From: Lepisosteus oculatus
Lineage: Eukaryota > Chordata > Actinopteri > Semionotiformes > Lepisosteidae
DNA length: 64,000 nt
Assembly: GCF_040954835.1 (NCBI RefSeq)
Contig: NC_090704.1
Location: 41,916,979 to 41,980,978 of the forward strand
Reading direction: 5' to 3'
Positions 3,001-49,439 of the stretch are shown here, piece by piece; the first letter of the stretch is position 1, and each line of letters begins with the position of its first letter. The notes under the pieces are model-generated. The model worked only from the letters and a program-made list of their open reading frames with translations. It was not told where the DNA came from and did no database searches. Made by a program: the position numbers and the translations under genes.

Positions 3001-6000
3001 CATGTAAGGCACTGAACTGTTCCTGTCTCCTCATGCTCTTTCCCTGCAATTGAGAGCATTTCACAGACCTATGTCCTTATCCCCAGCGTCATTAACACCC
3101 CCCTCACAGCTCCATATCCATCTTTTCTCCATGATGGTAGACTCTGGTGCTCATGCCCGGTCCCCTCTCTCCCCCCTCTCCCCCGCAGAGGTGCAGCAGG
3201 AGGGGAAGCTGGACCAAGCCAAGCTGCTGGAGGTGCTGAAGGAGCAGCAGGAGCAGCAGAAGAGGCTGTTGGACCAGCATGAGAAGCTCTTGGCTGTCAT
3301 CCAGGAGCAGCACAAGGAGATTCACCAGCAGAAACAGGACGGAGAGGAGGAAAGGCCCCCAGGTAACACACTGCCTGCAGGGCACTCGCAGACACCCAAG
3401 CAGAGAGAGCGCATAGTGCTTGCGATTCCTTAAGAGCTCCCCCAGCACGTTCCAGGCAGTGCACTTTCTAAGTGATTAAAAGAGAGCACTTTGCCTTCCT
3501 GATATTTCCTCTTTTTATAAATGAATTCCTTGCATTTATCCCAAAGGTTCTCAAAGTGTTCTACATGAATACCCACCACTGAAGTGCAGCCCCCACCTGG
3601 GTAGTCATTACACACCAGCAACCCCTCTACACAGCACTACAGCTGGAGAAGTGGGGAAATTTGCTTCTCCAATTGACTACTAGTCCAGTGTGGAATTTAG
3701 CCAGGACATCAGGATTTCCATCCCCTACTTTTTTGGAAAGTGACCAAGTAGTAGGGAGACAGGTTTAGGAAGTGAAGTTCTGGCTTTACCTATTAGCAGA
3801 TAAATGACATGTGAGGTATAAAGAATAACTGGAAGCTTAGGTTAGTATGTCAGCGCCCTCTGTCATGGAGGGTGTTAAACTGAATTGCAGTGTTGGGGTT
3901 GAGACTGTGGCCAGTTTTTCCTTTTGCTAAGGTTCTGACAGGTAAGCGAAGTGCAACAGTGCTTTCTGTGCATTTTTTCACGTGTGGCCCTGGAGGTCTG
4001 CTGAGTCCTGCTCCTGATGGCAAGCTGCCTGCTCGCTCACGGGCCCACTGTGCAGGGAGGTGCTCCTGCACACTTTCACTCCCAGGCACCCCCCCTGTCC
4101 CCGGCTCCGGGGGTTCCTGGAACCTGCTCCGCCACGCGGAAGTATGGCTGACCTGCAAAATCATGCATTTAGGATTTTGTTCCCTTATGACCTAAGTGGC
4201 AGTCAGACATTACTGACTTCCTCATTAACAGAATTCAGGAAATTATTTTTTGGGTGTTTATTCTCTTTGAGAAGTGTTAAGAATAATTACACAGTTATTC
4301 CTTGTGTTACTTTGCAACATCCTGCCAAAACATGCTAATCATCTGGGTTTTCAGAAGTGATGTAAATGAACTTTCCTTTCAACAGAACAGCGATTAAGTT
4401 TCATTTACTCACATACTTTTATAACTGACTACAGCGCTTTATTTTCTAAAGCAGCTATTTCTCATTACACAATTTTTAAGCTACTGGGCACATGCCTATG
4501 TCTTTAATTTAATTTACTGTATTTAATTAGAAATGCCTGAGCCATAATGAATTGCAGTTCTTGTTTATTGTCATTATGTTTAGATGGAGGATGAAATATA
4601 CCCTCTGGCATTCATGGTTTTTTTAATGAGGTTAAAATGGCTCTTCACCACAGAGACACCCCACACTCCATGTTTGTATAAATGTGTTTTATATATCCCG
4701 TTGAGTAATAATGTAGCAATGTTTGAAGAGCTAAATATGAATAGTTTTCTATAGTTATTTTTAATTTTTCTGTTGCAGTATGAGGTGCCATGTATACTGT
4801 GCTCTTTAGCTAGCAATGAAAAACTGCAATCTCGTGACACTACTGAAATAACTTTGTTGGTTCAGGTGGCTGAAATATCATGTTGGTTTAGTAACAGTGA
4901 ATTGTTATTGTGCAGAACTGTGGAAAAAATACCTTTAGAAATTCTAAACATTTAGAATCGTATGTAGGAGTTTACTACTGTGGCAGTAAACTGTATAACC
5001 TGCTCTGTCTCTCCAGAGGAGCACCCAGAGGCCCAGGCACCACCAGGAGAGCAGCTGGCTGAGAAGCCCGAACCCGAGGGTCAAAACCCTCAGGGCCTGG
5101 CAGTAGATGGCCCAGTGGGGGCAGGAAGGGGCGCAGCGCTGGACACTGACCAGCGAGAAGGGGGTGCTGACAACAGGGAGCACGCGGGTGGCGGGGCGTC
5201 CCACCACAAGCCGGCCCAAGAGGATGCCCCTCATCACCCAGGACGGAACGCGGAGGAGGTGGACCACAGCGGCCCTAAAGATGGGACGAACAAGGAAGAG
5301 CGGCGCAAGGAGGTGCCGCCGGATGCCGCAGCCAAGCCGCTGAAACCAAACTGGGGGCAGGAGAACCAGCCTGTGAAGGCTCACCAGCAGCAGCCAAGGG
5401 AGGGAGAAGCTGGGCACCGATTTGATGAGGCAAAGCCCGACGTGAAGGTTGGGGTGGCGGTGGGTGTGCAGAAAGAAGTTGGAGCCAGAGGAGTACCCCT
5501 GGGTCAGAAGAAGCCCCCAGCTGTAGAGCAGGCTCAGCCCAAGCCCCACCATGAACAGCTGGCCGGAGAAGGAGAGAAGCAGCAAGAGAAGAGAGCAGAG
5601 CAGGCAGAGGTGGCAGTGAAACGCAGAGAGGCCGATGAAGGGGACAAGGAGATGGAGAAGGAGGAAGACAAGGAAGGAGAGATGCAGCGTGCCAGAGATG
5701 CCCAACAGGCCGTAGAGGAGGTGAAGGCCAGAGCAGCAGCCGAGCAGGAATCTCTGAAGAAGGGTGGAAGGGACCTAAAGCAAGACACACTGCAGAGGCC
5801 AGAGGTACGGCAGCCGCCTGCAGAGGAAGAGGAAGAAGGGGCAGCGGCAATGGAGGAAGAGCAGCCGCTCGGCAAAGACAAGATCTTGGAGCAGAAGCAG
5901 CCACGGGACACGGAGCCCAAGGGGAATCCGCCGAGAGACCCGGGGGGAATGGATCTCAAGAGGAGGAGGCGGGAGCTTGGGGGGGGTGGGGGCGGGGTCC

Positions 6001-6131
6001 CGGGGCTGGAGCCCCTGCTGGAGCTGGGGGGGTCGGACCTGCATGCCGCTCTCGAGGGCCAGCTGCTCGGGGGGTCGCTGGTTCACACCCGCCAGATCAA
6101 ACAGGAGCCCCAGTCCGAACAGGAGAAATAA
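53..6131 (+). CDS. SLC38A10: SLC38A10, C-terminal exons (partial gene)
   Basis: This is the 3' part of a putative sodium-coupled neutral amino acid transporter of the SLC38 family. The membrane-spanning half lies off the left edge, so only the long hydrophilic cytoplasmic tail is present. Coding exons, all joining in phase 1, are 53-511, 637-744, possibly 2747-2767 (21 nt), 3189-3362 and 5017-6131, with the stop TAA at 6129-6131. The junctions are consensus, for example TTTGCAG at the first acceptor, GTGAGT after 744 and CTCCAG before 5017. Recognition rests on the conserved coiled-coil exon 3189-3362 ([17 protein letters not shown]) and the C-terminal end (DLKRRRREL, then [10 protein letters not shown]), both of which resemble mammalian SLC38A10. 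The rest of the tail is rich in E, K, Q and P and is probably disordered. The gene converges on NDUFAF8. I am sure of the family; intron 745-3188 could hide another small exon. Confidence 0.9.
745..2746 (+). other. SLC38A10 intron
   Basis: Non-coding stretch between the coding exons ending at 744 and the candidate microexon at 2747. It contains only short unsupported open frames. I see no clear repeat or RNA gene in it. Confidence 0.6.
3363..5016 (+). other. SLC38A10 last intron
   Basis: Non-coding stretch between the coiled-coil exon and the final coding exon. Around 4490-4580 there is an AT-rich tract with several TAATT/ATTA homeobox-type cores, which may be a small regulatory element. Nothing else stands out. 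Confidence 0.6.
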
Positions 6132-19700: not shown

Positions 19701-21742
19701 AGAATCTGTTGAAAATTGATTTAGAATGCTTCGTAACCTTGTGTTGCCATTCGCTGGTGAGATCAGAACAGTGTTAAAGTGGATGATCTGTTGTCATGGC
19801 TGAGGCTGTTACGACACTGTGATGGGTGTCTTTTCAGGGTGGAGGTGATGCATTTGGGAGACTGTGCCCAGGAAATGATCCTTATCAACAGATTGACTGA
19901 GGGGTCAAAGGTCTTCCTATCCAGAGAGGAAACACAGCACTTTCTTAAAGAGTATGGTCCTCGCTGCGCACTCTCAATTTTGTTGTGTCTCTGGCTTTTG
20001 TTGTTTTGCTTTTGGTTACTACTGTTCCCGTGTTTGGTAATCCTGCTGCAGGTGTGCCACGCTGAACTGTGAAGCGGTGGTGGAGCTGCTCTGTGGAAAG
20101 CTGCAGGGCTGTACACAGACTGTCCAAATGGTACGTTGTTGTTTCTGGCCCATGACTTTCCTGCTCATTAGTTTCAGGTGTCCTCAAGACACCCGTAATT
20201 TGTCGCAGTGCACAAGCTCTATGCACTAGTTAAAGCTGCACAGATCATTAAGTGTCCAGACATTGTTCTGGTCAGTCTTCGTCTCCTATGCTATGTGTTC
20301 CCAGTCCTCATCCCAGTCTAAAAAAAAAACATAGTTAGAATTGTAAAGCTTCTACCAGAGGTTTCTACTTTGGTGCAACACTGAATAATAATAACATACC
20401 CAGCCATGTTGTTGAAGCCAATACCCTGACTTCAGTTGAGCTGGAAGAGATCTCTGGATCAGTAAGCTACAAACGTCTTAAAGACTTCCTCTCATTTGTA
20501 AAAGCTCTTTTTATTTCAAATATATGTGATGAAACTTGTGACTTTGAAGAACTGTGAAAGGCTGTATGTATATGAAAAACTTGAAGGGTGTAAAGAGGGG
20601 TGCAGTATGTCTGCCAACTGCCATTGGCCTATTTGCTTCACTCCAGGCCAGTTACAAAAGCTAGTAGTACGTGAACGTACAAATTGAATCACTTCGAAGG
20701 ATAAATGAGAATTTTTTGTTGTTGTGAATCTATCTTTTTCTGTGTCCTTCCAGAGGGCTCTGTGTGCAGTGGCGTGTCTGATGTCATCTGACCTACTTTC
20801 ACTGGACCATGTATTTGGGGTTACCCAGAAGCACTTGGTGCAGCTGAGCAATGGACCACCAGGGGCTGTGGCCAATAAGGCCACCAAGGTGAGCACTGGT
20901 TGGGCTAAGGGGTAAAGAAGCAGATCTTAAATCTCCCCTGTAACCCATAGCTTCAGATTTTCTAAGAGTTCCTGTATTTGAAGAGTACCACAAGTGACTG
21001 CTCTTCTGTGCACTTGCAGCTCCTCAGGCAGTTTGAGGCGCTGATGCATGGCCAGCAGGGGGCATCAAGGTGTGACGGCAGTGACTTCCCAGCAGTCACA
21101 GGCCCTGCACCCCTGCAGGACTCCTCCAAACTAATGGACACCCTATTTTTGCCAACATCACGTGGGGAGACCAACATAGAAAGGGCACCAGGGAGTCAAG
21201 ATGTCACCCTCCAAGGTGAAATATCACCCCCCAGATACCAAAACAGCATCTCCTCAGTTTCTGACTCGGAATGGGATAGCCGTTGCACGCAGACAGAGGT
21301 ACAACGATGTGGATCAGAACTTTTCCAACCCACTGTCAATATTGCCAAGGATGTTCTACCAGGTAGAGACCCAGAGCATTACCAAGACGGCCACTTGGGT
21401 GCATGTGCCTCTTCAGACAGCGGTGTGTCTGGGCAGGGAACGCCGGCAGGGGACAGTGTTTCTGAGCCTGCATCAGCTGTGGTGGAGGATCTTGATGATC
21501 TTCCCTCCAATAAGCTGTCTCTTTTTTCAGGCATGGAGCTTGTAAGAGGCAAGCCTTCATGCTTCCCCGACTCTTCCAGGACAGAAGCCACTCCTCCTGC
21601 TCTGTGCATAGTGCAGGATACCGACGCTCACAGGGCTGCAGAGCCTACGGCCTGCTTCACGGACAATACCATCACAGCCTCGCCGCCATCCGACTCCGAG
21701 CGCAGCCAGCACCTCTCGGCTTTCTCCTTTCTCAATGTGTAA
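13778..21742 (+). CDS. TEPSIN: TEPSIN, AP-4 complex accessory protein
   Basis: Adaptor of AP-4 coated vesicles at the trans-Golgi, with an ENTH-like domain followed by a VHS/ENTH-like domain. Thirteen coding exons join in phase: 13778-13816, 14625-14697, 15133-15224, 15672-15765, 16238-16305, 16549-16630, 17374-17445, 18073-18258, 19268-19448, 19838-19951, 20052-20130, 20754-20888 and 21020-21742. The product is about 645 aa against about 525 in human. Diagnostic stretches are CPGYLFEEI and SQCLLEYLL (ENTH), GPPDPIHGN, VQGFGYSPGRHG, a Ser-rich linker, VFLSREETQHFLKE, LNCEAVVELL and ANKATKLLRQFEA (second domain). Both AP-4 binding motifs are present near the C-terminus: LFSGMELV (21521-21544) and SAFSFLN (21716-21736). 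The last exon is longer than the human equivalent. Intron 7 contains a full 5S-derived SINE. Confidence 0.95.
17462..18032 (+). mobile_element. Full-length 5S rRNA-derived SINE in TEPSIN intron 7
   Basis: The head resembles 5S rRNA: gccatatcaccctg near 17482, then agctcagcaggtgtgagcct and atggatgggagacctcctgg, which cover the internal 5S promoter region. A unique body follows, then a tail with gtaaagcgctttgagtggag and gcgctatataagtgtaag ending in ATT-rich repeats. This is the SINE3-type architecture known from zebrafish (5S head, LINE-like tail). It starts about 15 nt after the exon 7 donor. Confidence 0.75.
20385..20480 (+). repeat. Interspersed repeat, family R (copy 1)
   Basis: Contains acccagccatgttgttgaag followed by a stretch ending gagctggaagagatctc. 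Related copies in the same orientation are at 41020-41185, 53330-53640 and 55195-55260. The family is not recognised. It may be the 3' part of an old retroelement. Confidence 0.5.
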
Positions 21743-25979: not shown

Positions 25980-28656
25980 TCACGTGGCCCCCGGCTGCCC
26001 GCGGCTCTGCAGGCTGTGGAAGTGGGCCTCGCGGAGGATGCGGTTGATGCGCTGGTAGGAGCACTGGCTCAGGGACGCGGACTCCTCGGTGAGCTGCGCC
26101 GCGCTGGGGGGGCTGCAGGCGCCAGGGTGGTACCCTCCTGCCTCCGCAGACTGGCTGCTGCTCCCCGCCGCTCGCTCCGGGCTGCTGATGGCGCTGCAGT
26201 CACTGCTGGAGGACTGCGGAAAGAGGTGAACTGCTTATCCACCGGGCCAGCAGCGCTTACTGATCTCAGGCCTGCCTTTCCTTCGCCCTTGCCGACGCCG
26301 AGCAGAAAACCCAGCTGCTGGTGTCTCGCTGTCATTGTTTCACTGTCGGGTGTCATTTACAATGGTTTTTCAGGACTGCCACTTACTTAGATGTGCACTG
26401 GTGTACAGCCCTGGAACTGACTGCACCCAACAAGAGTTTAACCAAGATTAGGGAGAAATGAACACAGAAATCTAGACACTAGACATCTTACATGTGATCT
26501 CATACCATCTTCCACTTGCTCTCCACTTTCTGCCCCTGCTCTCTTTCAAGTCACTCCAATACTCAGACATACCTTATGACAGTGTGCTGCACATCTTTAC
26601 AGGGGAAGCTGCACTTCAGAGCACAACAGCAGAGTCAGTTCAGGCTTAACTTAATAGCTCTTGGAGATCCTGCTTGAGATAGTAGCTGCCATGTATGTGG
26701 ATTTACAATCAGTGGAATCTGGTACCCGAGTACCAAATAACATGTTGGGCCTGTGCAAGCAGCAGGAACAGTTTGAGGAGGAAATGACACGCAATTCCAC
26801 AATGTTCTGTATCTGTATCAAGTATCTGCAGCCCTAACCCACCCCCTGCTTTTCCTCCACAGCACTTAATCTGAGGATCTTTTCAACCAGGGAGCACGTT
26901 GTCCCATGCCCCTCAAATCAACCACGCACTGCCTGCCACAGAGAGGGTCTGCTCAGGTGTAAGGGGAGCAGGTGTCCTCTCCTCTTACCTCCGAGTCCCA
27001 GGCATCACGACCCAGCTCAGGGAACAGGGGGTGGCCCGTGCCCCCCCTCTTGGCCTGGGGTAAAAGCTGGCTGTCATCATGCTCACAGCTCCGCCGCCGT
27101 TTCCTGTGGGGAACATGGCCATTTCAGAGAAGCACCGCGGTTGTCGCCAGTCTGTCACACTTACTGATTACTGGCCTAGAGCACATACCACCAACCGACC
27201 CCCCCCTCCCCCAGCTCAGTTTTGTAAAACAATTTGGGCCAGTTCTACCAAAATTATGGGTGGCAGTCGAGCCCTCAACCATCATCTTGATCATCTCGAT
27301 CTGTCAGTTTACCTTCTTTGTTTCCTTCTACATAGCAGAAGGCATAAAAATCAGAATGACACTGCAGTTTGGGCAACTGTTTTGCAAGTCATGCAAACAG
27401 AATTTCTCAGTGACCAAGCATATGGGAGAGTTACCAACCACTTTCTTCACATAGGTTCACTTGGGAACATCAAAATGTGCACTCTGCTATGTTGCCATGC
27501 TATTCCTTCTTTCAGACCCCTCCACTAAAAATAGAAAACTTATTACATTTTAAAGAAACTAATTTCAAAAGAGGAACCCATATTTAATTCTTTAGCCAGA
27601 GAAGTCAACTGAGAATAAATTTTGTTTCACCTTCTTGGCCAAGAGCCTTATACTGCTGCAGCATAGAAAACAAGACAACGAAGAAAAGAACCAATTTATA
27701 ATGTAAATAAGGCATGACCACATTAAGTGCAAGTACAAAGCCTGAATGATTTTAACATACAACTCAAAATACCTCATACAAAATGCCAGAATACCAGAAT
27801 CTAATTGGCCAGATTTACTCTGAAAATTGATCCAGTCATTAGCTGTGGCAAACAGATGACTCGTGCCTAAAAACAGCACTTGCTCTTGGAAGGTTCAGTA
27901 TGATACAATTATAACTGGGGTCAGAGATAACTGTGCAAGTAGTTACAGTATATGGATAGGAAGGACTGTTCTAAAAATGAACAAGCCATTTTCCAAGGCA
28001 TTTGTCTAGAGGCACAGAAAGCCAATCAAAGAGTAAAGATTACAATGGAAGCTCAATATTCTCCTCAAGCAATCATTCTACTTGTTAATTTTAAGAATGT
28101 AAAGATCTCAGGCATCAACGTAAAGTCTGGGCAGTAACAACATAACCAGTCCGTAAATAACCAATTATATACCTCGTTAATACTATCCTACTACCCTGCA
28201 ATTGAAACTATTTACATTAAAGCAAAAGCAGAGAATTCTGTAAGATACAAGTGGCTCATATAGCACCGTAAATGCATAAAATACATTTATGTACTTAGAT
28301 TAACTATAATATTATTAATACACTCATCTATACTCAACATCCAGTATTCTCATACGAAGTATTTAGCTGAATCACAGTTTACACTCCACGACCTGTTTCA
28401 TTCTAAGCAATTGAAAGTGCTGAAAATAATCTGGCGCACGTAGTTCAGTGAAACTCCTGTAACAACTGAACAACGATCTGCCTGCCTCCACGTAAACCGA
28501 GCACCTCATTTAAAACTATTCTGTTGTAAAAGCTATATCGCGCACATTAAATGAACAAAGTACCGGTAACATCTCGAAGTGGGATTTCTTCCAGTAATGA
28601 CCCAAAACAGAAATCTACAGTAAAACAAACTCCACTCACCTGTTTTCCGACAACAT
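25980..28656 (-). CDS. FAM104A: FAM104A / VCF1, p97 (VCP) nuclear cofactor
   Basis: Small nuclear protein. Human FAM104 proteins bind p97/VCP through a C-terminal helix and promote its nuclear import. Three exons on the minus strand: 28640-28656 (ATG at 28654-28656, 17 nt), 26989-27103 and 25980-26213 (stop at 25980-25982). Together they give 121 aa with all phases agreeing. The protein starts MLSENRKRRRS, a basic nuclear-localisation-like cluster created across the first splice junction. It continues through LLPQAKRGG and GRDAWDSE, then a Ser/Ala-rich segment. It ends with the signature helix INRILREAHFHSLQSRG. Acceptors CCCCACAG and TCCGCAG and donors CAG|GTGAGT and GAG|GTAAGA are strong. 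It is head-to-head with C17orf80, as in human 17q25.1. FAM104B is the only other candidate, and position favours FAM104A. Confidence 0.9.
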
Positions 28657-30126
28657 CTAAAACACCACGGGACCAAGAGCTACTGTGAAAACACTTCCTC
28701 TTCGCGTCGCCTCTCTCTCTCTCAAGACCAGGGCTTGTCGGGGGACTTTATTTTTGGTTGGACTCTTTCGCCTTCTTAATTCGGTAAACGGACATAACTC
28801 ACAAATATTCTCAGCCCTCCCAACTACATGCAAATACAACAACGGTCTATCTTCGGAACTGCAACCTGCTTGCGGCAATGCCCGAAGTCTTGAACGACGA
28901 GTATTCAAGCACTGTGTCTGTATATTAAGTAACACAGTGCATCGGCCGAGAGGTTAAATCTAGTTTTACAGGCCCACTTATGCACGAACCACGGCTGTTT
29001 GGTTTCTCTTTCTGGAGAGGGAAACAAGAAGCAATTTTCTGTTAAAAGACAGTGGCATGAAGACTGAACGGAAGAACCCCCCCTCGTATTACAAGCCAGC
29101 CAGCCTGAGTTGTTTAAGTCTTAACTACGGGCTACAGCAAGTCCTCTAAACTCACGTCGTACATTTCTTAGATGGTAAAAATCTTAAAGATCAATACTAA
29201 GAAAAAAAATCCCTCCGTCTCAGGTCTATCTACCCCCCTACAAACACAACGACGATTCCTCACAGTCTCTACCCCTGTCGCCCCCGGCTTCAATCTAATT
29301 CTCCCCCACCCGGCGCTATCTCATCGATTCTTTTAACATAAAATCAAGATTAAGCTACGTCAAAACATTCTTTTAGCTTAGACACTTCATATCGTTAACG
29401 TAAATGATCTGCTTATCGTGAGAATCGCACCGGTTCCACCACCCAGCTCTCCCTCTCCAGCCTCAGTAGGTAGAGCTCCCCAGCTGTTTACATGACATTG
29501 CGCCTGCGCAATAAAGCCGGGCAGGTCACTGCAAACCGCTCAGGCAGGAAAAGGCCACCTATATCCTGGATCGCAAATGTCGGTAGGGCTCCCCCCAAAA
29601 CGTCGTCAGCAACGACATAAATGTGTTTACTTTAAGCTTCAAAACAGAATTGGTATTACTCTTGGTTCAATACTGTGGCGCAGTATAATTCATTTTCCGA
29701 AATACAGGCATTTGCGTAAGCTACCTATATTAAGGGCCTTTGCTTGCTACTTGTGTTTTTTTTTGTCAGATACTTTTGTACAGTACGTATAAGGATGAAA
29801 CATACTAAGCGCCTAACAGAGTTTAAATATTGCGTGGCTATTTATTGACTATTATTTATTTAGCGACCGAAAGCTACAATGATTATCGTGGTACTGTTTG
29901 GTAACATTTCTGAGAAAGTATCAAATTATAAAACGTAATTTTTCCGTTAATAAGTAACGCACAAAATATTTAACATCAAGTCTCACCGCAGTTTCATGCT
30001 CTCGGAGTACAAACAGCTGGAAATTCAGGCGACGTCAACCACTCCACCAACGGCCTATGCGCGATATTTTCTAAGCGTCTCTTCTGATTGGCTAGGTCAC
30101 GAAGCCCGACGACGATTTAAGGAGAC
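28657..30126. promoter_or_regulatory. Shared promoter region of FAM104A and C17orf80
   Basis: 1.47 kb between the two start codons, with no coding sequence. It contains an NRF1-like palindrome TGCGCCTGCGCA at 29499-29510 and an inverted CCAAT box (ATTGGCT) at 30087-30093, about 35 nt before the C17orf80 ATG. No TATA box stands out. The large distance suggests untranslated sequence or a 5' exon for one of the genes inside it. Confidence 0.55.
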
Positions 30127-33100
30127 ATGAGCTCGGGTGAGTTTTTTTTTAATCTTGAGTAACTTGGCGTTAACTTGTTACGCTACGTTGACATCACAGC
30201 TGGTTTTGAATTTTCCAAACCAATCAACGTTCTATCACAATGCGTGTACCCCTTATTCCAAACATTGACGCCCCCTGTATGAAAGTTTGTCTGGTGTGGG
30301 TGTCTCTGTCTCCGCTAGTTTTTGTTCCAGCTGACCTGTTAACGGATCTGCTTCTTGTTTAGACTTTTGTTTTTCTGTTTCTGCAATTGGTACGCCCTTA
30401 ACTCCATTAATACCGCTTCTCCATAGCTCTCTTTGTCCCGGCTATTATTTTACATCCTCAAATACACCTGTATAAAAGCGGAATTTGTCTGTCTCTGATG
30501 TGCAAATAGAACTACCTGGAGCACACTCAGCACAGGCTGGGGTTTTGCACTCTGCTACTGTTTGTGTAGAAAGCAAGAGGAATTTTCCAAGCTCTCAGTC
30601 AATCAGAGTGTGGCTTGATATGTACTAGTTCAGGTGGGCAGCTGCGTCAGCATGCATAGGCTGCAAAGGAACAAGTGATAGGTTTATTCCATGCTGAAAA
30701 GAGAAGAAAGAAAACAACATTTTGGCCGTGTGGCCTTCTTCAGGTGCTCACCGAAACGTTGTGTTTTCTGTCTTCTTTTTTCAGCATGGAATAAACCTAT
30801 CACTTGTTCCTTTGATATGTACTATATGTTTACTGTATGGCCAATGCCATTTGTAATCGTTCTGCCAGTTCACTTTGTGTTCAGTGATTTGCTGTGATCT
30901 CACCTGATCTGGATTAATGTAAGAGATAAGATCACTTTATTGGCCATATGCAATTTCATGTTTTAGGAATTTGTCTTTTCGCATTCCCCAACTTGCTCTC
31001 CATGAGACACACAGACGGGGAGAGAAGCTTGGGGTCAGAGTGCAGGGTCAGCCATTTATACGATGCCCCTGGAGCAGTTGGTTAAGGGCCTTGCTCAGGG
31101 GCCCAATGGAGTAGGATTCCTGTGCCAGCCGTAGGATTTGAACCAGCAACCTTCCTGCCACAGCTGCAGATCCTTAGCCACAGAGCCCCCACACAAGTAC
31201 CACACAGATCTGTCATATTGTAATTCAGCACTCCACTTGCCAGGTAAAACATTGAAATAGAGATAAATAAGTCTACGTAAAGGTAGTACAGCCTCTTTCT
31301 GTGGTCTTTATTTTAATGTGCAGTTGACCTGGATTTACTTGCTTGTGAAACAATGAAGTAAAAGAATGAGACAGAAAAGTAAAACATGGACATGTCTTTA
31401 AAAATGGTTTTGAAAGTTTTTTTTTTCTTCATCAGACAATAGATCTGGTTTAGGTTCTCTTGGGATGGAGGAGTGTCCGTTTTGTGGCAGGCCTTTCAAG
31501 AGGCTAAAATCACACCTTCCTCATTGCAAAATGGCTCCTGTCACCAGTGGAACGAAAAGCCACAAAGCATTATTATTCCTCAAGACCAGTGCACCTCCGG
31601 AGAAACAGACTACAGCAGCCAAGACAAAGAAGAAGAAGGTCACCATGGATACAGAGACTTCAAAAAAAGGCCCTACAAATAAAAATGACATATCTCAAGA
31701 CGTGGGTGAAAACAAAGTGGATCTGCAGTGGAAGAGATCCAGTGTTGAGCACCAGGCTGTGAAGAAGCAGGTTTTGTCCCCTTCAAAAAACAGAGTAAAG
31801 AAAAGTATTTCTGTCTCTCACCATCAGCCCAGACCTGCAGAGCCAGGAAGCAGTTCAGTTTCCATTCAGAAGGATTCTGGCACGTGTAGTGTAGGAGTCC
31901 CCGAGGCACAGAGGCAGGGTACTCCCAAAGCCAACTGCCCCAGGACAAAGCAGGACCACAGCTTGTCTTTGAAATCTCCCATCGATACTCCTGCGTGGCA
32001 GGAGACATCTCAAGGCCAGTGTACGGCATCTGTCAGTGCAAGCAAGAGTGGGACAGAAGCGACGCCGAGTGATGGAAGAAATTACAGGAAAACGGATGTT
32101 TGGGAGCACATCCAATACAGCTTGGTGAGCGAGAAAGGTTCAGTTGCATGTTACCAAAGCAATATGAGAACAAAGGGATATAGTGGCGCATCGGGCGGTG
32201 TGGAAGAAAACCACCACTTGACCAAGATAATGGAGAATTTCAGCGTCAAGACCTATAAACTTGCATGCATCAATGGAGCCAGTGAAAGAGCTCTCACAGA
32301 CGGGAATCGTGGCAGTAGAGTAGCGAGCGCATCATGGCTAGATGGGCCAAAGCCTGCAGGCTGCACCGCTGGCAGAGCTGCACGCGAGAGTGGAGATCTC
32401 CGGGGAGCCCCTCGGCCTGCGCCTCGTGCTCCAGGGGCCGTGGCCATGAAGCCCGTCACCGTCGCGGCTCCTGACCGGCCCGCCGCACCGAGAGGCCTGG
32501 AGTGGTTCGCAGAGCTGGGCCCGGGGTATCGGGCCATCGGGTTCTCCATGCTCCCTCTGCAGCCCCTCCCTGGGCTCGCGAACAACAGGACAGGCCAGCG
32601 CCCAGGGCCAGTGGGAACAGGTACAGAACTATCGACATGGCTGAGATGAGTAATCTCTGCATGAGTACTCGTTATCTGGATATTATCCATCCATCAGTAT
32701 TGGATTGGAAGCGTATGGACTCACAGGAACACTTAAAACCATACCAAAAAGAATCTCTGTAAAACATGTGTCAGCACAGCCATCCTGCACTTTGAGATGA
32801 ATTCTCCATGTTAAGTTTTAACCTTACTGAAAAGCTTTAAACCAGAGTATAAAATAAGTTGAAGAGATTGCTTCACCTCTGTTTGCTTTGCAGATGCAGC
32901 CTGATAGAATTAGAATGTCTGATGCAAACAGTCCCATTGTAAAAAGGAGTAGAGAAGAACACTATGTAACTAGAAGTCAATTTGACAGAACCTGGATAAT
33001 GCAAAGTCCTGTGCCTGTGATCTGAAGCCAAAGGGTATTACAAGCCTGAAGGATCAAAACCCAAGCTTAGTGAGGCTAATTGGAAATGGGAAATGTAAAT

Positions 33101-35392
33101 GTTTGCTTGAACTAGGACCGTTATTAAACCCCCAGTTTGTGTCAGCAGGTCTTGCTGCTCTGCTGAGTGGGATAGTGGTTCTGTTCCAGGCTAGGTCAGC
33201 AATGGCCACATCATTGTCCCAGTGGCATTGTTTTGGCTGTGCATGTGGTCCCCAGTCTGGGTCACTGAGGTGGTGGTGGAGCTACAGTGCTCGGATCAGT
33301 GCCTGCTGTGTGCAGCGCAGGGCAGGCTGCTGACGCGCAGTGTTTGTGTGTGTGTGTGTGTGCAGGTCCTCCGACACAGTTTCCCGTAGCTCTGGCGCAG
33401 CGCAGACTGATGGAGGTGCAGCTGGGGGAGCTGCCTGCCTGGCTGGCCATGGGCACAATGACACCCTGGGTGGGGATGGCAGCTCTGCGCCGAGGTCAGC
33501 AGAATCCATTGTTGTCTTACCTGGTCTCAACTCCAGCAGGTTGCAGGTCTTTATCCGTTGAAGAGTGTAGGCTCCCTGTCGAGACCTGCATGGCTGTGGC
33601 TCTCCAGGAGCAGGAGTGATCGGAGAGAGTGCACCAATCCAGCAGGCTCAAGTGAAAGAACAGAGCAGATGTCCGCAGGGAGCAGTGGGCTGATAAGAAA
33701 AAAGGGATGTGAAAAACACTGGGGTCACTCAAGCCTTTTCTACTTGTAGAGTTCCTGCAGCTCCTTTTGAGGTTTTAGTGAAATCTTTAATTAGAGCATA
33801 GCGTCTCAGTCCTGGTCCTGAAAGAGCCCTGTGTTAGCCTGTTTTTTTTGCTCAAGCTGACTCCTAATTACCAAAACTAATTGATCCCTTTAAATGAAAC
33901 ACTTGCTTCAGCAGAGCTTTTTAACCTCATTCTGTACCCTGTCCTTGATTAAAAAAACAAAATGCTCAGCTGCAGGCAAGTTTTTTTCAAGAGATTTAGT
34001 GCGCACAAACCTGTTATTTTAGTTTTGATAATAATAATTGCTTACACTTATATAGCGCGTTTCTGGACACTCCACACAAAGTGCTTTACAGGTAATGGGG
34101 ATCCCCTCCACCACCACCAGTGTGCAGCATCCACCTGGATGTGCTTATTATGTTGCTGCTCCTTTATTTCTGCCTGAGTAGCTCTTAATAAGTGATCAAT
34201 TATCTTACAATGCTTTCTTTCAAAAAGGGAGATCTGTTAACACTGAAAATGGTACCGTGAAAACGCTGATGACAAACCCAATCCATAGTAAAGAGATGTG
34301 AAACTCCTAAATTCAATGTCTTGACAATTGGAGGTCGGTTGTCCTCCAAGATCAAGACCTGAAAACCAGACGACAGGGGAATCAGGACCAGGGCTGGGTC
34401 TGCATCTTGGATTCTTTTGCAAGATTGCATCATAATCGTTTAAAAGTTTAAATGAGGAAGATCCCAGGGGAAAATGGCATTTTCCAGGAAGATCCTGGGA
34501 ATAAAGAAGGCTCCAACAGTGAGATTTGGGAGGATCACCTGCTGAGATTGCGATCTTCTGTGCGCGCATATTTCCAGTGTCACCAATTCAGTGCTTGGCA
34601 TCTCATCCGTCCTTCAGATGAGACGTAAAACCGAGGTCCTGACTCTCTGTGGTCATTAAAAATGCCAGGGTGATTCTCGAAAAGAGTAGGGGTGTAACCC
34701 CGGCGTCCTGGCCAAATTTCCCATTGGCCTTTACCACTCATGGCCTCCTAATAATCCCCATCTCTGAACTGGCTTCATCACTCCGCTCTCCTCCCCACTG
34801 AAAGCTGATGTGTGGTGACCGTTCTGGCGCACAATGGCTGCCGTTGCATCATCCAGGTGGATGCTGCACATTGGTGGTGGTGGAGGGGACCTCCATTACC
34901 TGTAAAGAGCTTTGAGTGGAGTGTCCAGAAAAGCGCTATATAAGTGTAAGCAATTATTATTATTATAATTATTGTGTATTGTTGTTCTTGCAGGCTGGCA
35001 GAGGTACTACAGCAAGTTTATTGATGTGAGGAAAGGTGGAGCTGGGGGCTTGACCATGCTGCTGGCTGCCTACTGTGTCCTTAGCTACAGCTGGAATTAC
35101 CCACACCTCAGTGAGTAGAGCTCCCTTCTGTGAATGGCATCAGCTGCCTCATGTACATCACACACTGACACGTTCATTATTTTCTACTGCTGAAAACTTA
35201 TTACCCAGGGGTCCACCTTCTTTTTTATTGAAGTATTTGAATAGTTCAGCCCAAACCCTAACTGAGATGAAGGCGAGGCATGGTTGGGATTAATTGCTTT
35301 GTTGGCTGAACCCGCCTGGCTGCTGTTGTTTTTTTGGGCCTCCCTGTCATCATGTCATTTCAGAGCAGCAGCGCTGGAGGAAGTATCACTGA
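30127..35392 (+). CDS. C17orf80: C17orf80 orthologue with C-terminal ATP synthase subunit f-like module
   Basis: Five coding exons, all meeting in phase 1: 30127-30136, 31436-32620, 33366-33494, 34994-35110 and 35364-35392, giving 489 aa. The start MSSDNRSG, assembled across intron 1, resembles the human MSDN start. A C2HC zinc-finger-like motif CPFCGRPFKRLKSHLPHC lies at residues 17-34. A long Ser/Lys-rich low-complexity region follows, then GLEWFAELGPGY near residue 357, shared with human C17orf80. Exons 3-5 (about 90 residues) closely match mitochondrial ATP synthase subunit f: RRLMEVQLGELPAWL, then RGWQRYYSKFIDVRKGG, the membrane segment GGLTMLLAAYCVLSYSW and the end RWRKYH. Human C17orf80 has been placed at mitochondrial nucleoids and the inner membrane. 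Translation could also begin at Met14 (31465). An AATAAA at 36327-36332 may end the 3'UTR. Confidence 0.9.
30664..30814 (-). mobile_element. Foldback element with hammerhead-ribozyme-like core (Penelope-like relic)
   Basis: Perfect 37-bp inverted arms (30664-30700 and 30778-30814) continue inward with few mismatches. On the minus strand the centre reads CTGAAGA (30737-30743, fitting the hammerhead CUGANGA box), then a GGCC-4nt-GGCC stem (30724-30735). AAAA follows where GAAA is expected, and the pair of AACG (30757-30760) with TGTT would form a short stem III. Penelope-like elements are known to carry such ribozymes in their terminal repeats. It lies in C17orf80 intron 1. Confidence 0.6.
30915..31197 (-). 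mobile_element. tRNA-derived SINE in C17orf80 intron 1
   Basis: On the minus strand it has a tRNA-like A box (gtggctaagga), a B box (ggttcaaatcc), then the same body and tail as the copy at 12625-12918. These include ggcccctgagcaaggccctt, tggctgaccctg, gtgtgtctcatgg and an aataaagtgatctt end. Confidence 0.7.
33345..33362 (+). repeat. (TG)9 microsatellite at a splice acceptor
   Basis: Nine TG units run directly into the CAG acceptor of C17orf80 exon 3 (exon starts at 33366), so the dinucleotide repeat takes the place of a normal pyrimidine tract. Confidence 0.85.
33800..33960 (+). repeat. Interspersed repeat fragment (unclassified)
   Basis: Begins with tctcagtcctggtcctgaaa, related to the fragment near 8035, and continues through an AT-rich body. 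Lies in C17orf80 intron 3. Family not recognised and borders approximate. Confidence 0.3.
34027..34143 (-). mobile_element. 5S-type SINE 3' fragment, C17orf80 intron 3
   Basis: Reverse-oriented tail of the same SINE family: cttacacttatatagcgcgt, tctggacactccacacaaag and tgctttacaggtaatgggga. The 5S head is missing. Confidence 0.75.
34604..34975 (+). mobile_element. 5S-type SINE (head lost), C17orf80 intron 3
   Basis: Carries body and tail closely matching the copy in TEPSIN intron 7: gtaaaaccgaggtcctgact, tggccaaatttcccattggc and gcgctatataagtgtaagca, ending in ATT repeats. The tail ends about 18 nt before the exon 4 acceptor. Confidence 0.8.
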
Positions 35393-46335: not shown

Positions 46336-47328
46336 TTATACTCGAATTTCGTCGTCGTCCTCGTCCATGAAGGAGAAGTCCTTCTCGTCCTCCCCCTGCG
46401 GCGAGCCGGACTGGACGCTCTCCGCGTCCCCCTGCCCTGGGCTCCCCTCCAGGGCCGCCGATCCCGCGCTGGAGACGGACGAGGTGTCCGGGTGCTGGCG
46501 CCGGGGCTGGGGCTCTGGGGTCAGGGGGCCAGCGCGGTGAGCCTGGCTGTCTGACGCCCTGGGGGGTCGGGACTCCACCTCCCCCTGGCCCAGAAGAGGT
46601 GGCGAGCCCCTGCCTTCGCTGCTTCTCCCCTCCTCGAACCCCAGATCGTCCTCCTCCCAGGCGCTTTTATCCATGACGCTCAGGATGTCTCCCAGCATGG
46701 AGGGGCCCAGGTCGATGTGGAAGGACATGACGGACTCGGCGTGTTTCAGCCCCCCCCCAACTCTAGGGGGCGACGACGGGGGGAGGTCCGTCAGCTCGCC
46801 GAAGTTTTTCTCGTCCAGCTCGGGGTCGTAGGGCCTGTTGATGCCGGAGGGGGGGGCGGCGGCGGCGGCACCGTTGGCGGGCTTCTCGGAGTCCGGCGCT
46901 TTCTTCAGGGGGCTGGAGGAGAGGCTCTTGGGGACGCGGCCAGCCCTTCTCTCCCCGTCCTCGTCGTTGAGGTGCGGCAGGGACACCGCGTTCTTCACGA
47001 AGGTGGGGGAGCCCCTGGGCGGCGCCAGAGTGGACTCCCGCTTGTCGGCCCGCGTGACGGACTGGGACCGCCGGCTGTGGCGGAACGTGCGGGAGAAGAG
47101 CCCCGGCTTGGGGCTCGGGGAGTGCGCCGGGCTGTCCCCCTCGCGGGGGGGCTCCCCGGAGCGGGTGCTGAGGAAGGACGTGTCCCCGAAAGCGTCCCCG
47201 CCCCGGCCCACGTGCATGGTGTGGCGGAAGTCCCCCAGGGGGGCGCTGATCATCTCCACCGTGAGGTCGGCCCGGGAGCGGCGCTTGGACTGGGACGAGT
47301 TGGAAACCAGCTGCTTGAGGATCGGCAT
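46336..47328 (-). CDS. CDC42EP4: CDC42EP4, Cdc42 effector protein 4 (BORG4)
   Basis: Effector of the small GTPase Cdc42 that influences septins and actin shape control. It is encoded in one uninterrupted exon of 330 codons plus stop, as in mammals (human about 356 aa). The start MPILKQLVS is followed by SKRRSRADLT, the CRIB Cdc42-binding motif ISAPLGDFRHTMHVG at residues 27-41, and GDAFGDTSFL. Also present are RSQSVTR, PKSLSSSP, the BORG-family block KHAESVMSFHIDLGPSMLGD and the acidic end FSFMDEDDDEIRV. The frame stays open for 95 codons upstream. The start chosen is the one that matches the family, since the upstream part shows no family similarity. The coding exon is GC-rich and CpG-rich. 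The gene points left, towards C17orf80, as expected from the human order. Confidence 0.97.
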   Translation of the reverse strand: MPILKQLVSNSSQSKRRSRADLTVEMISAPLGDFRHTMHVGRGGDAFGDTSFLSTRSGEPPREGDSPAHSPSPKPGLFSRTFRHSRRSQSVTRADKRESTLAPPRGSPTFVKNAVSLPHLNDEDGERRAGRVPKSLSSSPLKKAPDSEKPANGAAAAAPPSGINRPYDPELDEKNFGELTDLPPSSPPRVGGGLKHAESVMSFHIDLGPSMLGDILSVMDKSAWEEDDLGFEEGRSSEGRGSPPLLGQGEVESRPPRASDSQAHRAGPLTPEPQPRRQHPDTSSVSSAGSAALEGSPGQGDAESVQSGSPQGEDEKDFSFMDEDDDEIRV

Positions 47329-47537
47329 TCTGACGCGGCTCCCGAGAAACGAGGGGAGGAGGATTCGGGATGGGAGATTCCCTAGGCAAGTCCGAAATAA
47401 GCTCGAGTCCCTTCTGCTCACTGGAGGCGGGCTATGCGGAGACGTTACGGTACGAGAATTTCCAGATATCTCCAGGTCACAGCCATTGCAGTTCCCCCAC
47501 CATTGGTCTTGACACCCCAAAATCCTCTCGATCAACC
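47329..47537 (-). other. CDC42EP4: CDC42EP4 5' untranslated part of the coding exon
   Basis: A strong acceptor (TTTGTTTTTCAG on the minus strand, AG at 47538-47539) precedes this stretch. It fits the mammalian layout, in which untranslated 5' exons lie far upstream of a single coding exon. The upstream exons were not found. Confidence 0.5.
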
Positions 47538-49439
47538 CTGAAAAACAAAAGCACGAGAAACCGTATGGATGAGACGTACAGCCGACCAAGTCTTCTAGTT
47601 TCAGATCTGACAAGCATGGCAGACAAACTGGTATTCTATCGTTTCATTCTTTAAAAGGAAAGACAGCGGACGGTAAGTATCAATAAAACAGAACTATGTT
47701 TGTGAGCCAACTAACTATAGACAATACAATTCACAGCACAGATTTGCAAAATACTAGTAAATCTTTCAGCATTGCATGAAAATGCAAATTTCAAAAGGTC
47801 TTGATAGCAACAGTAACTGGAATATTAAAAGTAAAGGGAGATAATCCAAGACAGAGGTGGAAGAAACCAACATAAAAAGGATACAATTTCAAAGATGGGC
47901 TGCAACATGTGTGACAACTTTATTATACCTTTCAACTACAATATTGATATCACCAAGAAACTAATTATGTGATGCATCGTCAGCTTGCTCTAGGCAAATG
48001 GCATTAGAGTACCAGGACTCTTGAGCATCTGCAGTCACAGGGAGAGACAGAACAGCCTGCTCTCCATCGGCACCTCAGAGCCACCCCCTCACAATCATTC
48101 TGTTTGTTCAATTCCCTGCCAGATTGCAAGTAAACAATCTTTTCCATGTCAAACATGGTTTCCAGGTGACTACGTTCAAATGGTTGTTAATGCACTGAAT
48201 TCATTAGAACGGAAATAAAAAGAAACCCAGAAGCATGGTAGATCTGCTCAATGCACCTGCAAGAAAAGCAAGTATTTAATAGCAGAACTACAACTAACCA
48301 GGTGTGACCCACGACAATAAAATACACATTGAAGTGGCCTAATAACTGCAACTTAATATCAGTCACAAACCCCAGCATGTGTCTTTCTTAAGACACATTT
48401 AAATGTATGCAGGTAGAACACACCACCAGAGGGCAGTGTTCATGGCCTGCCCCACACAGCGGGGTGCACACAGGACTCTCACAGGGAAAACAGAACAGAA
48501 CCATAAGGTCCAAATCACTGTAAATGGGTAAGAAAAAGAGACAAGTGCAAGACTGGTGCCTAAGCCAAGCCGGAGAATCTGGGAATGCTGATCAGGATAA
48601 AGTGGGGCTGAGAATGGAGGTACTCAACTCTCAACTCACGTTTGCCTTATTCTGCACTGACATCTCCATCATCTGTAGACCTACTGTTGACAAGAGCCCT
48701 GAGGAGCTCTACAGCAGTGCATTGCACTGTCACAGTGATCTGGGCAATGACACCCGGCTGGGCTCTTCCGCCTTATTGAAAGTCTTTATCGCAGCGACGC
48801 TGGCAAGGAGTTACGTCCTTTCAGATTAAAAGCTAAAAGAACGTAGGCTTTCCACACTGCCAGAGATGCTTAAATATCTTGCAGAATGAATTACAGCCAT
48901 GCTGTACTCCATTATATATTAAATAACCCGTCGTCCTTCACACTAACTGCAGAGGTTTGCACTCGAAGCGATTTTTCTGAAAGGCGGGTTCGTCCCACCA
49001 AGCATGTTTTTCAGGACTCTTCTTTCTCTCCTAACCACATGTGTGGAACAACAGGAATTCTCATCAGCGTGCTCCGGATTCCCAAGCAGACCCCAGGGAG
49101 CCCCTGCGCCTTCCATATGATTTCCAGTCCCGACTTCACAAGTTGAAATTGACACGTAAAACCAACCCTCTGAAGACTCAACCTTTCTAACAATCTTCAA
49201 CGGCGCTTCTTGATCTCCTGTTCTGGTTTTTACGTCATAAAGGGATCAGGTTGCTCTCGTCTGGCATTTTTCTCATTTTCTAGCTGCTTCTGATTCTAAA
49301 GGGTCATTTACAGCTTTAGGCGAAGAAACTCAAAATCTGCTTTTACGCCACACACATAAAACTTGTGTTGTTGCTTCCCCTAAAATGAACTTAAGGTTTC
49401 TGAAAGCTTTCTCCTTTCTCTTCAGTACTTGACTAGATT

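Follow-up and report, generated by a model that had tools for sequence, protein, structure and literature searches.

A C17orf80-type gene of Lepisosteus oculatus that very probably ends in a module derived from ATP synthase subunit f

The whole stretch of DNA analysed here (hereafter the window; 64,000 nucleotides of Lepisosteus oculatus contig NC_090704.1, forward strand) carries a plus-strand gene which is, with high confidence, the C17orf80 orthologue known from jawed vertebrates, with a tail derived from ATP synthase subunit f. Indeed, exons 33366-35392 of this gene encode a full-length subunit f-like module. C17orf80, a membrane-associated nucleoid interactor that has no settled function in the main text of PMC10445727, clearly illustrates how a subunit of ATP synthase has been turned into the tail of another mitochondrial protein; the relationship with subunit f is detectable here by single-sequence search, and the introns common to the tail and to ATP5MF hint at how the fusion arose. 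The central idea of the original prediction is already published, since the homology, the origin and the anchoring are all found in the main text of PMC10445727. What is added here is the intron match with the ATP5MF gene of the same genome and one more orthologue, a modest addition that brings no new principle.

Reading of the window combined with tests of the splice borders yields a gene of five coding exons, which encodes a protein of 489 aa and ends in TGA. The splice borders were set on GT..AG positions with an open frame in view, and all four introns have GT..AG borders and are in phase 1. The coding exons are the following:

30127..30136, plus strand: coding exon 1, predicted from frame and splice borders, encoding MSS and the first base of codon 4, with donor GTGAGT
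31436..32620, plus strand: coding exon 2, encoding the C2HC zinc finger and the long middle, with the end ..GLEWFAELGPGYRAIGFSML..GPVGTG and a donor at 32621
33366..33494, plus strand: coding exon 3, 129 bases, phase 1-1, in which the subunit f-like module begins; its counterpart is exon 2 of the ATP5MF gene of the same genome (108 bases, phase 1-1)
34994..35110, plus strand: coding exon 4, 117 bases, phase 1-1, encoding WQRYYSKFIDVRKGGAGGLTMLLAAYCVLSYSWNYPHL with the predicted membrane helix; length and borders as in ATP5MF exon 3
35364..35392, plus strand: coding exon 5, 29 bases, encoding (K)QQRWRKYH and the stop; length and phase as in ATP5MF exon 4, which encodes (K)HDRWRKYH

Coding exon 1 (30127-30136) lies within a CpG-rich stretch that separates this gene from a FAM104-type gene on the minus strand. 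The next ATG, at 31465, is an alternative start that gives 476 residues, the form used in one of the Pfam searches. In the 489-aa model, the subunit f-like module corresponds to residues 399-489.

The original prediction held that the last three exons match subunit f almost end to end and proposed a profile search of residues 399-489; both the span and the family were borne out. The Pfam family PF10206 bears the name WRW / mitochondrial F1F0-ATP synthase, subunit f. The isolated 90-residue tail matches this profile with 40.9 bits (E=2.8e-10) over positions 27-101 of 102, above the curated cut-off of 26.5 bits, and the 476-residue form matches it with E=7.7e-9. When the tail was compared with PDB chains by phmmer, eight distinct sequences were found at E<=1, each of them bearing the name of subunit f of ATP synthase, with E-values from 9e-26 to 5.7e-11; the best of these matches (E=9e-26) spans query residues 5-90 of the tail, i.e. 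86 residues, and the five printed alignments are free of gaps. The motifs LGELPAWL and RWRKYH and the stretch GGLTMLLAAYCVLSYSW, all named in the original prediction, are present in the translation. The middle stretch is present too, but reads YYSKFIDVRKGG, with R where K had been given. The most hydrophobic 19-residue Kyte-Doolittle window of the whole 489-aa protein lies inside the module, at residue 456, with a mean of 1.19, a modest value for a transmembrane segment.

The qualification of the tail as "near-intact" holds for its length and less so for its sequence. The control chain 6j54_f scored 72.1 bits against PF10206, compared with 40.9 bits for the tail, and over 84 ungapped columns the tail shares 48 identities with the ATP5MF product of its own genome, 41 with 8h9f_R and 43 with 6j54_f (chains that we take to be human and pig subunit f, respectively). 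Over the same 84 columns, the ATP5MF product of this genome shares 48 identities with 8h9f_R and 46 with 6j54_f, and the latter two share 68 with each other. The tail is therefore approximately as distant from the ATP5MF of its own genome as that ATP5MF is from the two mammalian sequences. Among the 43 columns that are invariant in the three f sequences (own ATP5MF, 8h9f_R and 6j54_f), 31 are retained in the tail and 12 are altered, including R-D-F to G-T-M and G-I to V-G within one segment.

The identity of the gene as C17orf80, already proposed in the original prediction, is supported by the spacing of the zinc finger, the order of the domains and the neighbouring genes. The C2HC zinc finger (CPFCGRPFKRLKSHLPHC, residues 17-34) has the spacing CX2CX9HX3C, which occurs once in the 489-aa protein. 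In profile searches, the first 64 residues gave zf-C2H2_4 with E=0.042, below the curated cut-off, the finger being too short for a significant match, and its best PDB match was SLX4 (E=0.0035). The human finger has the same spacing and is also weak by profile, with E=0.1 (PMC10445727). Like its human counterpart, the protein described here consists of an N-terminal C2HC finger of equal spacing, a long middle and, at the C-terminus, a subunit f-like module that has a single membrane helix, but it counts 489 residues, whereas the human protein counts 609 (PMC10445727). According to Potter et al. (2023, J Cell Sci), C17orf80 orthologues are defined by the combination of a zinc finger and a subunit f-like domain, which is dated to jawed vertebrates, approximately 450 million years ago (PMC10445727). 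On either side of the locus, genes of the FAM104 and CDC42EP-type families are encoded:

25980..26234, minus strand: part of a FAM104-type gene, the head-to-head upstream neighbour (PF15434, E=1.5e-16)
46342..47544, minus strand: coding exon of a CDC42EP4-like gene, the downstream neighbour (PF14957 BORG_CEP, E=8e-21; PF00786 PBD, E=6e-8)

The downstream Cdc42-effector gene is presumably the family member CDC42EP4; in human, too, C17orf80 is flanked by FAM104A and CDC42EP4. Pfam searches of seven neighbouring open frames left four of them without a family at E<=0.1. Further upstream, an open stretch (19761-20069) matches a Tepsin VHS/ENTH-like domain (PF25827, E=5.5e-10) and is probably part of a Tepsin-like gene on the plus strand. 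Two long plus-strand open frames (3008-3430 and 4968-6128) are rich in Q, E and K and have no Pfam family at E<=0.1; in our opinion, they resemble the tail of SLC38A10.

The source genome (1.2 Gb, 813 contigs; the window corresponds to C9:41916979-41980978) was searched with the PF10206 profile, and all six candidates were scored. This search gave one match at E<=1, located on C19 (E=0.0085), and missed the f exons of the window itself; it is therefore too insensitive to claim a single ATP5MF copy. In 14 control genomes, the same search gave one match and none over the cut-off. The ATP5MF gene of this genome was located by tblastn at C19:10866000-10875000. It comprises four coding exons, and all its introns have GT..AG borders and are in phase 1:

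2247-2262, 3287-3394, 4708-4824 and 5443-5471, counted within C19:10866000-10875000 (L002): coding exons 1 to 4 of ATP5MF, obtained by tblastn and assembly

Its product has 89 residues (MADRLVPLSEKRLMDVKLGELPAW..RWRKYH), and the C19 gene is an ordinary ATP5MF. The intron positions and phases of the two genes, a comparison suggested by the original prediction, agree inside the module; at its start, the phase agrees but not the position. Indeed (i) both internal introns are found in the C17orf80 tail and in ATP5MF at the same columns of the ungapped alignment (37 and 76 of 84 columns) and in phase 1, (ii) the two genes agree in the length of the exon that separates these introns, 117 bases, and of the final coding exon, 29 bases, and (iii) where the module begins, both genes have a phase 1 intron, but that of C17orf80 lies seven codons earlier (column -6 versus column 1; exon of 129 versus 108 bases). 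Exon 1 of ATP5MF, 16 bases that encode MADRL, has no counterpart before the C17orf80 module. The matching internal introns and exon lengths speak in favour of the capture of an intron-bearing rather than a processed copy of ATP5MF, since the latter would be free of introns. Most likely, exons 2-4 of ATP5MF were copied as DNA, together with their introns but without exon 1, and the copy was joined behind the zinc-finger exon. The tail resembles ATP5MF by its gap-free alignment over the whole subunit length, by its end ..RKYH and by the two internal introns, but it differs from it by its fusion behind an N-terminal part of 398 residues and by the absence of exon 1, besides its sequence divergence. 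Since the module is preceded by no in-frame ATG between 33266 and 33366, it represents a derived module and not a free-standing subunit f. Human ATP5MF has splice forms that lack 39 residues, i.e. the length of the 117-base exon. The parts consulted of the literature on ATP5MF paralogues, fusions and splice forms, including PMC4415626, provided nothing usable on the structure of the ATP5MF gene.

The derivation of the tail from ATP5MF by fusion in vertebrates, as had been proposed, agrees both with the common introns and with the main text of Potter et al., in which the human C-terminus is homologous to subunit f (HHpred E=2.6e-15) over almost the complete subunit, membrane helix included (PMC10445727). 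That main text nowhere mentions "intron", "synteny" or "gene duplication" and uses "exon" for the knockout only, so that the intron match with ATP5MF is not discussed in it (PMC10445727). According to the same source, human C17orf80 is mitochondrial, with its N-terminus in the matrix and a membrane-associated C-terminus, is anchored in the inner membrane and co-localises partially with nucleoids; its middle part is disordered according to the published predictions, and its membrane helix is likewise only moderately hydrophobic (PMC10445727). The topology is based on C-terminal tags, and a C-terminal biotin-ligase fusion was itself mislocalised (PMC10445727). The original prediction that the tail accounts for the inner-membrane location is upheld there for the human protein, in which this part is involved in anchoring (PMC10445727).

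Most likely, the f-derived segment would act as an inner-membrane anchor, so that the zinc finger and the long middle face the matrix, close to the mtDNA nucleoids. The protein of L. oculatus would be expected to behave like human C17orf80 in its location and topology, and anchoring is probably, though by no means securely, the main function of the module. A second paper reportedly addresses C17orf80 and mtDNA replication. Several results in human cells count against a strong tethering role: mtDNA content and nucleoid morphology were unchanged upon siRNA silencing, the two knockout clones had 20-30% less mtDNA, significantly so in one of them, the OXPHOS complexes were assembled and working in knockouts, and a major tethering role was judged unlikely by Potter et al. 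(PMC10445727). Other points against the preferred reading are the moderate hydrophobicity of the membrane helix, the weak profile matches of the short zinc finger, the seven-codon offset of the introns at the module start and the dependence of the published topology on C-terminal tags.

A bolder reading is that the module has retained the function of a subunit f, docking on ATP5MF or replacing it in some ATP synthases or assembly intermediates and thereby linking nucleoids to the enzyme. The homology over the full length, the conservation of both ends and the 31 of 43 invariant residues retained speak for it, but 12 of these 43 are altered, among them RDF (now GTM) and GI (now VG) within a single segment, an ordinary ATP5MF is available in the genome for this role, and the main text of PMC10445727 gives no experimental support, in human, for an interaction of C17orf80 with ATP synthase. 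We regard a persistent subunit f activity as improbable. It would also be a long shot, to about the same degree, that ATP5MF exons 2-4 were captured with their introns in early jawed vertebrates and that tails as well kept as this one (31/43) still bind the Fo part of ATP synthase or assembly intermediates; were it so, mtDNA nucleoids would be tied to the enzyme that they help to build.

The preferred reading, a C17orf80 protein with a subunit f-derived anchor, supposes a single gene. The original prediction considered the reading phase to be continuous from the zinc-finger exon into the tail exons, and this was found to be correct, all junctions being in phase 1 with an open frame and GT..AG borders. 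Phase, splice sites and the published order of the domains suggest that the zinc finger and the tail would be present in one transcript. It could be argued instead that a zinc-finger protein ends unspliced at 32647, where a stop occurs eight codons beyond the donor of exon 2, and that a separate ATP5MF-like gene occupies 33366-35392. The single ATTAAA, at 33123 in the intron 32621-33365, would suit such an arrangement; a short first exon within this intron is possible, and the intron match with ATP5MF would fit a separate duplicate as well. The first in-frame ATG of the module (33410, MEVQLGELP) could then serve as a start, but it lies within the f homology, so that its use would remove the first aligned residues, and the open frame that leads from the stop at 33266 into the module has no in-frame ATG before 33366. 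The observed/expected CpG ratio was calculated for 15 500-base bins starting at 29000. It is 0.83-1.15 in the three bins that cover 29000-30499, and the remaining 12 range from 0.0 to 0.77; this maximum of 0.77 belongs to the bin at 32000, within the zinc-finger exon, and might be claimed for a second gene, but the ratio is low (0.20-0.48) in the bins 32500 to 34500. Furthermore, the exon phases fit one gene, and orthologues described in the literature, from sharks to human, carry the two ends in this order within one protein (PMC10445727). On balance, the frame, the CpG values and the published domain order favour one gene, and an arrangement in two genes is highly improbable.

A chance or convergent resemblance, for which it could be said that the helix is a single short hydrophobic stretch, is refuted by the best PDB E-value over 86 query residues, by the introns common to the tail and ATP5MF, and by the shuffled-module control, in which none of four shuffles matched PF10206 and a single shuffle had a match, to something unrelated (E=0.23).

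Finally, no Rfam match was obtained at gathering thresholds between 28000 and 37000, no tandem repeats were found between 30000 and 36000, and two pairs of inverted repeats are present in the introns of the gene. In the first intron, inverted arms of 53 bases (30664-30716 and 30762-30814) are 96% complementary and 45 bases apart, and may represent a small mobile element or a fold-back. In the intron that precedes the membrane-helix exon, inverted copies of a 122-base repeat (34020-34141 and 34850-34971) are 92% complementary and 708 bases apart, and may stem from a short interspersed element.
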